From NCBI GenBank assembly GCA_037139415.1, contig JBAXGN010000044.1, forward strand, positions 1 to 44,899: a DNA stretch of 44,899 nucleotides, given 5' to 3'. The stretch's first letter is position 1. Every line of letters starts with the position of its first letter. Of this stretch, positions 16,760 through 26,443 are shown one piece after another. The stretch is from Verrucomicrobiota bacterium. GTDB lineage: Bacteria > Verrucomicrobiota > Verrucomicrobiia > Limisphaerales > Fontisphaeraceae. Made by a program: the position numbers and the translations under genes. The notes under the pieces are model-generated. The model was not told the DNA's origin. It did not search any database and saw only the letters and a list, made by a program, of their open reading frames with translations.

Positions 16760-19700
16760 ATGTCTGATCCGGCCACGTTTGAGTCGTTCCAACGCGCGCT
16801 GAACCGTCTGGTTGACACGTTCGGCCGGAACCTCGTCGCGTACAAAAGCTCCGCCTATGACGAGGCCAGCCTGCGCCAGGAATTCCTCACGCCCTTCTTT
16901 CGCGCCCTGGGCTGGGATGTGGAGAATGATGCCGGGCTGATTCCCCAGCACCGCGAAGTCGAGATCGAGAGCCGTCCCCAGATTGGCGGACGCCAGAAGC
17001 GCGCCGACTTCCTGTTCCGCACCCACCCCACCGACCGCTTTGTCTGCGAGGCCAAGAAGCCCGCCGAAGAACTCCACGCCGGTTACGCCTTCCAAGCCAA
17101 ACGCTATGCCTGGAACAAGGGCCTCCCGCTCGCCGTCCTCACCGACTTCGAGGAGTTCAAAATCTACATCGTCGGCGGACGCCCCTACAAGGACGAGCCC
17201 GAGGTCGGCCTCTGGGAGACCTGGCACTACACCCAATACCCGCTCATCGCCCAGCAACTCTGGGACCTGCTCGCCCGCGAGCGCGTCGCCGCCGGCAGCA
17301 TTGATCAGCTCATTGATTCCCTGCCCAAGAAACCCACGGGCAAGGGCAAAGGCAAGGCCAAACAAGGCTGGCTCATCAAGCCCGACCGCGCCCGCGCCCT
17401 CGACACCGATTTCCTCAACTTCCTCGATGAAGCCCGGCGCGAACTCGCCTCCGACCTGCTCCGCCACAACGACCGCGCCGATCTCCTCGAAGGCGCCCAG
17501 CTCAACGAATCCGTCCAGCGCATCCTCGACCGCATCCTGTTCCTGCGCATCTGCGAAGACCGCGATATTGACACCGGCTACCCGCTCGACCGCCTCGTCC
17601 GCTCCTGGCGTGAGGATGGCCATCCCGATACCGCCCGCACCGCCCGCCAGCAGCCGTTTGAACTCCACGATGAAGAGAGTAGGAGCCGACGTAAGGAGGC
17701 TCTAACATCGGCCCCCAAGAATGAGCCTCCTGACGTCGGCACCTACGCTGGCTCTCTATGGCACGCCCTCGTCCGCCACTTCCGCGCGCTGGACCGCCGG
17801 CCCCCCTCGCACATTCCCTTCTTCAACGGCAACCTCTTCAAGCCCCATTTCAGCGAGGAACTCCTGGTCAGCGACGAATGGCTGGCCCACTTCCTCGATG
17901 AACTGGGCGATGAGGAATCCCCCTACCTCTTCAGCTACATCCCGGTGGAAATCCTCGGCACCATCTACGAGCGGTTCCTCGGCAAAGTCGTCCGCCCGCA
18001 CGGGCGGGGCGTGACGATTGAAGAAAAGCCGGAAGTCCGCAAAGCCGGGGGCGTCTATTACACCCCGCGCTACATCGTCGAATACATCGTCGCCCAGACC
18101 GTCGGCAAACTGCTCGCCGGGCGCAAACCGGAGGACGCCCTCAAAGTCCGCATCCTCGATCCCGCCTGCGGCTCCGGCAGCTTCCTCATCTGCGCCTTTG
18201 AGGCCGTCTGCGAGCACTGCCAGCAATGGCTCACCGACCACCTCCACCAATCCGTAGGTGACGAGGTAACGAGTCTCAAACTGGAGGGGAAAGATCAGAG
18301 CCTCCTCACGTCGGCTCCTACGGCGGTGGCGTGGCTGAAGAAACACCGCGACTGGTGCTGGCTCGAACCCGGCGCCAACGCCGTCCACCTCACCACCAAG
18401 GCCCGCCGCCGCATCCTCCGCGAGACCATCCACGGCGTGGACCTGGACCCGCAGGCCGTGGAAGTCACCCAGCTCTCCCTCTACCTCAAGATGCTGGAGA
18501 ACGAGAACCGCACCACCCTGGCCCATGAGCGCAGCCTCTTCGGCAGCGATGAAGCCCTGCTGCCGCCCCTGCAAGACAACATCAAATGCGGTAACTCCCT
18601 CATTGCCTCCGATTTCTCGATGATCCCCGAGAACCTCGTGCGCGTGCATGCCTTCGACTGGCCCGTCCAATTCCCCGCCATCATGAAGGTCGGTGGATTT
18701 GATGCGGTCATCGGAAATCCGCCTTACCGCAGCTTGCTACTAGGAAAAAAACAGAAATCGGAAACAGACGACACTATCGAATATTACCAATCCAAGTATC
18801 CAAGTGCGGCCGTCTATAAAATGAATTTGTTCGGACTGTTCATGGAATACTCGACAGCGCTACTGCGGAAGGGCGGTCAATTTTCATTTATTATACCGAA
18901 TCTTTTCTTTACAACCCATTATTTCCGCGACCTCAGGCATTTTATGCTGGGAACAGGCAGTTTCAGCGCGGTCTTTGACCTGCGATTTAAGGTCTTCGAC
19001 GAAGCGGAAATGGGAGGAAACGGGATTTTTGTTTTTAGCAAGTTGGTAGAAGCGCCGGTGATGGAGATTCGCGTCGCTGAGTCAAAGGAGCATTTCATAT
19101 TACCTGTGAGTCGCCACTTGCCAACAACCTCATTGCGGTCAGATCCAGACCTCAATTTGCTGGCTTCCATGGGCGGTGGGACCGTGATGGCGCGTGTTCG
19201 CTCCCTTCCATTCATCACAATCGATAAAGCGTGCATTATTTATCAGGGAATTATTACGGGCGATAACAGCGTATTCCTTTCAGACACGCAACAAGGTGCA
19301 AAATGGCAAAGAATTTTGCGAGGCCGTGACATTGATCGTTATGCAAAAGAATTTGGAGGCATGTTTGTCTTCTATGAACCCAAAAAACTATGGAGCAACA
19401 CAAACCCAGAAATGTTCAAATCGCCAGAGAAGCTAATCAGCAGACAGACCAGTGATCGGTTAGTCGCGACCTATGATAACGAAGGTTACTTTTCATTGGA
19501 CAGCACGCATGTTATCCAGCTCAAGAACCCGCTCTTTTCTATTAAATATCTCTTGGGAATTTACAATTCTCGATTGCTCAACTTCCTGTATTCAGAAAAA
19601 GTTCAGGAAGGAGGCCGTGCTTTTGCCCAAGTGAAGGTTGTAAATTTGAAACCTTTGCCAATCCGACTTCTCGACCTTTGCAAACCCGCCGACAAAGCAC

Positions 19701-19894
19701 AGCACGACAAGTTGGTTGGCTTGGTGGACAAGATGCTGGCGTTGACACCACAGTTGCGTGCGGCCAAGACGGACGCCGAGCGGGAGACATTGCAAAACGC
19801 CATCACCGCCACGGATCAGCAGATTGATGCGCTGGTGTATGAGTTGTACGGCCTCACCCCGGCGGAAATCGCACTGGTGGAGGGCGGCCAATAA
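16760..19894 (+). CDS. Single-chain restriction-modification enzyme (type IIG-like: nuclease + N6-adenine methyltransferase + specificity domain)
   Basis: One 1044-aa protein appears to combine all functions of a DNA restriction-modification system. Residues 30-130 resemble an HsdR-type PD-(D/E)XK nuclease: Asp83 (QKRADFLF) and Glu97-x-Lys99 (VCEAKKP). A helical region follows. The methyltransferase has YYTPRYIVEYIV (about 429), motif I DPACGSGSF (about 468) and motif IV NPPY (about 652), which marks N6-adenine methylation. A TaqI-like target-recognition region (655-960) and a helical end follow. It should cut unmodified DNA and methylate self DNA. No separate hsd genes flank it. Two palindromic repeats sit in frame at residues 307-329 and 499-521. 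From about 18720 the DNA becomes far more AT-rich, suggesting a swapped specificity domain. Confidence 0.88.
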   Translation: MSDPATFESFQRALNRLVDTFGRNLVAYKSSAYDEASLRQEFLTPFFRALGWDVENDAGLIPQHREVEIESRPQIGGRQKRADFLFRTHPTDRFVCEAKKPAEELHAGYAFQAKRYAWNKGLPLAVLTDFEEFKIYIVGGRPYKDEPEVGLWETWHYTQYPLIAQQLWDLLARERVAAGSIDQLIDSLPKKPTGKGKGKAKQGWLIKPDRARALDTDFLNFLDEARRELASDLLRHNDRADLLEGAQLNESVQRILDRILFLRICEDRDIDTGYPLDRLVRSWREDGHPDTARTARQQPFELHDEESRSRRKEALTSAPKNEPPDVGTYAGSLWHALVRHFRALDRRPPSHIPFFNGNLFKPHFSEELLVSDEWLAHFLDELGDEESPYLFSYIPVEILGTIYERFLGKVVRPHGRGVTIEEKPEVRKAGGVYYTPRYIVEYIVAQTVGKLLAGRKPEDALKVRILDPACGSGSFLICAFEAVCEHCQQWLTDHLHQSVGDEVTSLKLEGKDQSLLTSAPTAVAWLKKHRDWCWLEPGANAVHLTTKARRRILRETIHGVDLDPQAVEVTQLSLYLKMLENENRTTLAHERSLFGSDEALLPPLQDNIKCGNSLIASDFSMIPENLVRVHAFDWPVQFPAIMKVGGFDAVIGNPPYRSLLLGKKQKSETDDTIEYYQSKYPSAAVYKMNLFGLFMEYSTALLRKGGQFSFIIPNLFFTTHYFRDLRHFMLGTGSFSAVFDLRFKVFDEAEMGGNGIFVFSKLVEAPVMEIRVAESKEHFILPVSRHLPTTSLRSDPDLNLLASMGGGTVMARVRSLPFITIDKACIIYQGIITGDNSVFLSDTQQGAKWQRILRGRDIDRYAKEFGGMFVFYEPKKLWSNTNPEMFKSPEKLISRQTSDRLVATYDNEGYFSLDSTHVIQLKNPLFSIKYLLGIYNSRLLNFLYSEKVQEGGRAFAQVKVVNLKPLPIRLLDLCKPADKAQHDKLVGLVDKMLALTPQLRAAKTDAERETLQNAITATDQQIDALVYELYGLTPAEIALVEGGQ
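17679..17746. repeat. Palindromic element copy A, in frame inside the restriction-modification gene
   Basis: Two 24-base arms (17679-17702 and 17723-17746) are reverse complements at 22 of 24 positions, around a 20-base centre. Arms begin GTAGG and end GGAGGCTC, or the reverse. The 68-base unit is translated in frame, giving SRSRRKEALTSAPKN and following residues between otherwise conserved protein segments. Other copies are at 18254, 19899 and 26420. Confidence 0.85.
18254..18321. repeat. Palindromic element copy B, in frame inside the restriction-modification gene
   Basis: Same architecture as copy A: 24-base arms (18254-18277 and 18298-18321) around a 20-base centre, total 68 bases. The arms pair at 18 of 24 positions. 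It is read in a different codon phase from copy A: here GTA is a codon, while in copy A the arm starts at codon position two. Even so, it contains no stop and gives SLLTSAPT on exit. Confidence 0.8.
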
Positions 19895-19898
19895 CCCC

Positions 19899-19988
19899 GT
19901 AGGAGACGACGCAAGGAGACTCAAATATGAATTCCATGAATGCCCGCAACCAGCCAAAAAGTTTGAGTCTCGTTCGCCCGACACCTAC
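19899..19988. repeat. Palindromic element copy C, just after the restriction-modification gene stop
   Basis: Arms 19899-19922 (GTAGGAGACGACGCAAGG...) and 19965-19988 (...CGACACCTAC) enclose a longer, 42-base, AT-richer centre. It starts 4 bases after the stop codon and could act as a stem-loop between this gene and the converging dnaG gene. Confidence 0.75.
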
Positions 19989-26419: not shown

Positions 26420-26443
26420 GTAGGTGCCGATGTAAGGAGGCTC
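26420..26443. repeat. Solo arm of the palindromic element (copy D)
   Basis: GTAGGTGCCGATGTAAGG followed by AGGCTC matches the 24-base left arm of copies A-C. No matching right arm is seen within the next 60 bases. It lies in the gap between the aas-like gene and the alpha/beta-hydrolase. Read on the minus strand it encodes SLLTSAPT, the same peptide as on exit from copy B. Confidence 0.75.

Follow-up and report, generated by a model that had tools for sequence, protein, structure and literature searches.

How does a short palindromic repeat come to lie twice within one protein-coding gene, in frame and in two different codon phases, and does this mean that the element evolved to be tolerated inside genes? 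We address this question in a Verrucomicrobiota bacterium, in a window of 44,899 nt that comprises positions 1 to 44,899 of contig JBAXGN010000044.1. The host is a restriction-modification (RM) gene whose protein carries N6-methylase, Eco57I and TaqI_C domains, together with a match to the HsdR N-terminus that falls below its cut-off. The features of the locus are as follows.

16760..19894, + strand: host RM gene, a single open frame of 1044 codons encoding a type IIG-like restriction-modification protein
17679..17746, unstranded: copy A, a REPIN-like doublet (24-20-24) at about residues 307-329, found by arm pattern and covariance model
18254..18321, unstranded: copy B, a REPIN-like doublet (24-20-24) made of an arm, a 20-nt spacer (18278-18297) and an inverted arm
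18254..18277, + strand: left REP arm of copy B, GTAGGTGACGAGGTAACGAGTCTC, 39.9 bits with the covariance model
18298..18321, - strand: right REP arm of copy B, GTAGGAGCCGACGTGAGGAGGCTC, 38.4 bits with the covariance model
19899..19988, unstranded: third doublet (24-42-24, decayed right arm), found by arm pattern and equal to L291 2975-2998 and 3041-3064
26420..26443, + strand: single REP arm, intergenic, found by arm pattern

Copy B encodes VGDEVTSLKLEGKDQSLLTSAPT, at about residues 499-521 of the host protein. The original prediction held that the architecture of copy A recurs 575 bases further on in the same gene, in another phase and without a stop, and the coordinates bear this out: both copies have the 24-20-24 layout, their starts lie 575 nt apart, their first bases occupy codon positions 2 (copy A) and 1 (copy B), and neither contains a stop in the frame of the host gene. 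The two match each other best in opposite orientation. The third doublet starts 4 nt past the host gene's own stop codon; a homologue fragment in L072 (G022:C109) likewise has an arm directly past its end (552-575). As argued below, copy B is very probably a GTAG-type REP doublet that inserted into the RM gene and survives in frame in a flexible loop.

The arms follow the motif GTAG + GAGNC-GA-N[GTNA]N-GA-GNCTC. The window contains five matches to this pattern at up to three mismatches, against 0.00 expected from 100 shuffles, and a looser pattern with up to two mismatches finds 33+27 matches, or about 60 arms, across the whole genome, where the reversed pattern, used as a control, finds none. 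GTAG opens 44 of the 49 distinct arms, a count to be read with the search pattern itself, which demanded GTAG and allowed up to two mismatches over the whole arm. Pairs 8-21 and 12-17, whose positions the search pattern left free, covary. At 8-21 the distinct arms carry CG (14), AU (13), UA (4) or GC (1) and are unpaired in 17 of 49; at 12-17 they carry CG (24), GC (16), AU (3) or UG (2) and are unpaired in 4 of 49. The covariation score of 0.288 was reached by none of 500 shuffles, and slid controls stayed at or below 0.053. Two of the five covariation measures are unremarkable, namely pairs changed on both sides (a level reached in 35/500 shuffles) and additional kinds of pair (205/500); these values, together with the unpaired arms, indicate that degenerate copies are numerous. 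Searching the genome with a covariance model returned 132 matches with E values up to 10, and those inspected near 18.7 bits are mostly a second REP variant, GTAGCCGTCGAGGTAAGGAGACGG and its kin. This variant forms inverted pairs in the same genome (L314-L333, for example L331 C287:3573-3642) and occurs once within a phosphoglucomutase gene (L316).

Copy A as a whole folds into one long hairpin (z -8.5), whereas copy B folds no better than its shuffles (z -1.16), so a long hairpin suits the former and fails for the latter. For two of the four single arms of A and B, the left arm of copy B included, the hairpin energy is no better than that of shuffles. The inverted pair is a dispersed unit, with 140 doublets (139 distinct) in a set of at least 120 named loci, hereafter the named loci. 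The original prediction of a family of dispersed palindromic elements, with in-frame copies that genes read in more than a single phase, thus holds, and the phases are 1 and 2.

The doublet of copy B is REPIN-like and fits the GTAG REP superfamily as described in print (Di Nocera et al. 2013, PMC3733652), which includes intragenic GTAG REPs in the verrucomicrobium O. terrae. As that source describes them, GTAG REPs share with the present family the GTAG tag, a short, imperfectly paired hairpin whose stem shows compensatory changes, doublets with outward tags, a mostly intergenic location with some copies in genes and sometimes two per gene, and tags that provide TAG stops to flanking genes; the likeness rests on these described features. 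The superfamily has 24 family consensuses in print. Genes for replication and repair receive the emphasis there, and its main text does not use the word 'restriction', whereas RM genes are hosts here. REPINs of Pseudomonas fluorescens, as described by Bertels and Rainey (2011, PMC3116915), likewise consist of two inverted REPs and a spacer as the dispersed unit. In that species 14 of 1,067 16-mers overlap genes, compared with 31 of 140 doublets in the named loci here, counted by a different method; unlike the P. fluorescens elements, the present family showed no RAYT linkage in our scans. Rickettsia palindromic elements resemble the family in a behaviour that is no sign of kinship: they too insert in frame into functional-looking genes, but their tag is CGTC rather than GTAG and their lineage is different. 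The R. conorii elements are grouped by this CGTC tag in the text of PMC3733652.

The repeat family is largely confined to one order. Of the 58 genomes searched within the order, 29 contain the arm pattern, this genome counted; of 194 drawn across the phylum, two do, this genome being one of them. Among 80 of the at least 120 named records whose titles were recorded, 79 are Verrucomicrobia, many of them labelled Limisphaerales or Verrucomicrobia subdivision 3; the window, too, presumably comes from Limisphaerales. The remaining title belongs to a contig of a Klebsiella pneumoniae MAG (L165) that carries a Verrucomicrobia-type doublet, and this bin is probably mislabelled. In L140 and L193 neighbouring doublets of 58-60 nt form runs (FR_27, H5_VER1).

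Our scans by locus, by presence and absence and by RAYT protein tied no cognate transposase to the repeat. Eight Y1_Tnp loci occur in the genome, and a strong arm lies within about 0.6 kb at two of them, both crowded with other palindromes; the Y1_Tnp genes of L031 and L032 sit amid AACACCAAAGGTGTT, CAACTCCGTTGGAGTTG and other palindromes, possibly their own repeats. In seven other genomes, 30 Y1_Tnp loci (of 43 matches) gave arm matches at two only, all weak. One RAYT type showed no association with REP presence (21/29 versus 17/29 genomes, p 0.41), and 11 RAYT-like proteins compared with the named loci gave two matches, L168 and L217. The use of GTAG by TnpAREP is described in the text of PMC8266576.

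The original prediction left the balance between copies inside and between genes to be checked, and copies prove scarce in genes. Genic and intergenic calls come from a home-made gene finder rather than a standard annotation. Of the 59 strong arms in the genome (E up to 3.8e-4), 58 could be placed, the remaining one lying outside the fetched stretches; 48 of the 58 are intergenic and 10 lie in genes. These 10 sit in just five genes: the RM gene of the window, which holds four, the Eco57I/TaqI_C genes L104 and L085, the type I HsdR gene L114, and L091, which was scored as in-gene although its called start, at a doubtful 5' end, is probably wrong. RM genes thus make up four of the five hosts, a prominence that is a count and not a tested enrichment. 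Among 30 matches to the Eco57I family in the genome, three have in-gene arms within the fetched loci. Weaker arms are distributed similarly: 26 of the 32 placed are intergenic, four lie in called genes (two in a phosphoglucomutase gene, two in a low-scoring ORF of L329) and two overlap a gene end, one of them that of an MmeI-type RM gene (L315).

Across the named loci, 91 of the 140 REPINs are intergenic, 31 are in genes and 18 overlap a gene end; the called coding share is 77%, yet only those 31 lie inside genes. The 29 ORFs that contain them all have a Pfam match and are varied, including the valyl-tRNA synthetases L125 and L184, another class I synthetase (L225), PNP (three), PurL (two), xanthine dehydrogenase-like proteins (two), GcvT, LpxB, UvrA, a MutY-like protein, Hsp70 and others. 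RM proteins account for five of the 29 (L135, L141, L150 with a match at its cut-off, L178 and L155), and with this variety a pure RM-target reading was dropped. By reading, domain matches span or flank 20 of the 31 in-gene REPINs on both sides; those of L140, L150 and L229 are close to the end of their ORF, and in several cases the ORF is truncated where the locus stops. Inserts are common to homologue pairs in PNP, XDH, PurL and ValS, and the two PurL, two XDH, PNP and ValS cases look inherited and are therefore not independent. In the xanthine dehydrogenase-like pair L211 and L237 the inserts occupy the same site near residue 171, and L237 also holds a decayed form of a second L211 insert. 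One comparable case appears in the text of PMC3733652, Xanthomonas recB, where two species carry REPs at nearly the same position. The neighbouring called gene in L136, L191 and L165 appears to take its stop codon from the TAG within the REP tag, with 4-nt overlaps.

A structure predicted for the host protein (mean pLDDT 71.3, 14 aligned rows) places copy A within a stretch of predicted disorder and copy B partly so. Confidence drops below 50 at residues 288-330, which contain insert A, and at 505-516, within insert B, where a predicted helix (474-503) extends into the start of the insert. The low pLDDT at both inserts may in part be an effect of the few aligned rows there.

Related genes carry similar inserts. 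We fetched 20 stretches with RM homologues, of which L072 was left out of the alignment. By the covariance model, eight of the 20 have strong arms within or close to the gene, and arms lie within the main ORF in six (L061, L062, L063, L064, L071 and L073), two of which are broken or short, L061 being in two frames and L073 having 510 residues. Their inserts fall into three shared regions, at residue ~306 (window, L064, L073), ~455 (L063, L064, L073) and ~499 (window, L061, L062, L063, L064, L073; in L064 the model detected the second arm only), where the remaining RM homologues compared showed no arms; the L071 insert lies at a site outside all three. In a quickly built tree with 18 rows and long branches, from which L069 and L076 were left out, the regions at ~306, ~455 and ~499 need at least 3, 2 and 4 changes, and a single gain of the shared sites was dropped on these counts, with recombination of RM genes as a caution. 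A search for clean empty sites among the homologues found none, and lengths vary around the A and B sites. From the alignment, three loop regions of this RM family appear to have taken elements in several genomes.

A closer counterpart of copy B than copy A lies at the same site in L062, a gene from another family. The spacers agree at 17 of 20 bases, which together with the common site suggests that the two doublets share descent. The arms agree at 44 of 48 positions and the flanks at 275 of 360 (136/180, and 139/180 beyond a second element), so that the arms are better preserved than the flanks (p 0.015). The window and L062 genes fall in different clades of the tree. RM genes recombine, and recombination or gene transfer likely lies behind the likeness despite this separation. 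The L061 insert in the region at ~499 is read in another phase, a difference that points either to an independent insertion or to a shift.

Is the family, then, built to be read? The original prediction took openness in several phases as a sign that the element evolved to be tolerated inside genes, and selection for readability, which would let it spread there, could draw on several observations. The consensus arm is open in five of six frames and so is not riddled with stops, left arms alone are slightly more open than shuffles (descriptive means of 4.75 versus 4.49 in intergenic and 4.87 versus 4.48 in in-gene copies), and in-gene copies occupy two phases in both RM and core genes. The openness of the arm is nonetheless ordinary, in that random hairpins with the same pairs average 4.67 open frames and 61% of them match or beat the consensus. 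Copies A and B as wholes are each open in only two of six frames. Whole REPINs equal dinucleotide shuffles, with 2.10 of 6 frames open versus 2.07 between genes (39 of 100 sets of shuffles attain 2.10) and 2.19 versus 2.14 within genes (42 of 100 attain 2.19). One phase is always closed because the GTAG tag reads TAG there, and none of the 182 intergenic or 62 in-gene strands has it open. Those 31 REPINs of the named loci that lie in genes fall in phase 1 (11) and phase 2 (20), and never in phase 3. With the strong preference for intergenic sites added, we consider selection for readability very unlikely, and that part of the prediction is unsupported. The in-gene copies are those that could be read, and the family itself is not specially readable. 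Their lengths agree with this: REPINs of 0, 1 and 2 mod 3 number 3:9:19 in genes versus 30:31:30 between genes (p 0.009, named loci), and the skew to 2 mod 3 (19/31 versus 30/91) is expected with selection on frame. Since two length classes are common, one fixed insertion size cannot account for all in-gene copies.

Two further histories concern the copies in the RM gene. That copy B is a mere recent local duplication of copy A, a possibility on which the original prediction would have foundered, is suggested by their position in one gene and their common layout, and is almost certainly wrong: the copies are in opposite orientation, their spacers share only 5 of 20 bases direct or 10 of 20 inverted, and copy B has its closer counterpart at the same site in L062. 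Among 161 elements, at least 10 align better to each copy than the two do to each other, the A-B score being 88 and the ten best other partners listed scoring 89-102 for A and 95-104 for B. A domesticated loop, in which inherited insertions now serve the enzyme and the REP likeness reflects only their origin, is improbable, if less so. It would fit the site and spacer that copy B shares with the first L062 element, conserved at about the level of the flanks, and the inserts shared by the PNP, XDH, PurL and ValS pairs. The inserts are, however, patchy on the tree, vary in phase and length within one region and lie in predicted disorder, and the better preservation of the arms over the flanks points to the DNA rather than the peptide.

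Survival of an inserted doublet is the reading we prefer. The analysis shows the repeat family and the covariation of its hairpin, the in-frame position in the gene, the insertion regions shared by homologues and the intergenic preference. A non-autonomous REPIN-like element would have inserted into the type IIG-like RM gene, moved in single-stranded form by a RAYT (TnpAREP) transposase, as its membership of a known class suggests. The insertion would survive where the frame is kept, the always-TAG phase is avoided and the site is a flexible loop, and the enzyme presumably tolerates the insert. In-gene copies would then be survivors of purifying selection and not products of selection for readability. 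Set against the open papers searched, two observations appear new: the three regions in which members of this RM family share insertions, and RM genes as four of five in-gene hosts of strong arms in this genome, with varied hosts elsewhere.

RM genes could also act as landing pads and carriers, with REPINs settling time and again in the same loops of a mobile RM gene, riding with it between bacterial families and seeding new genomes from there. We hold this to be a speculative and rather unlikely idea; if true, it would help explain the spread of the repeat across the order without a resident cognate transposase having been found. REP elements are named as extragenic, and the present family provides a natural collection of insertions that keep the frame. 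They occur in RM enzymes as well as in core enzymes, among them class I tRNA synthetases, PurL, LpxB and Hsp70, and different genomes are hit in the same region. For an element this short, the count of open frames is at chance level. The family thereby opens the question of how non-autonomous repeats enter proteins and which loops take about 23 foreign residues, and raises that of why RM genes stand out in this genome.
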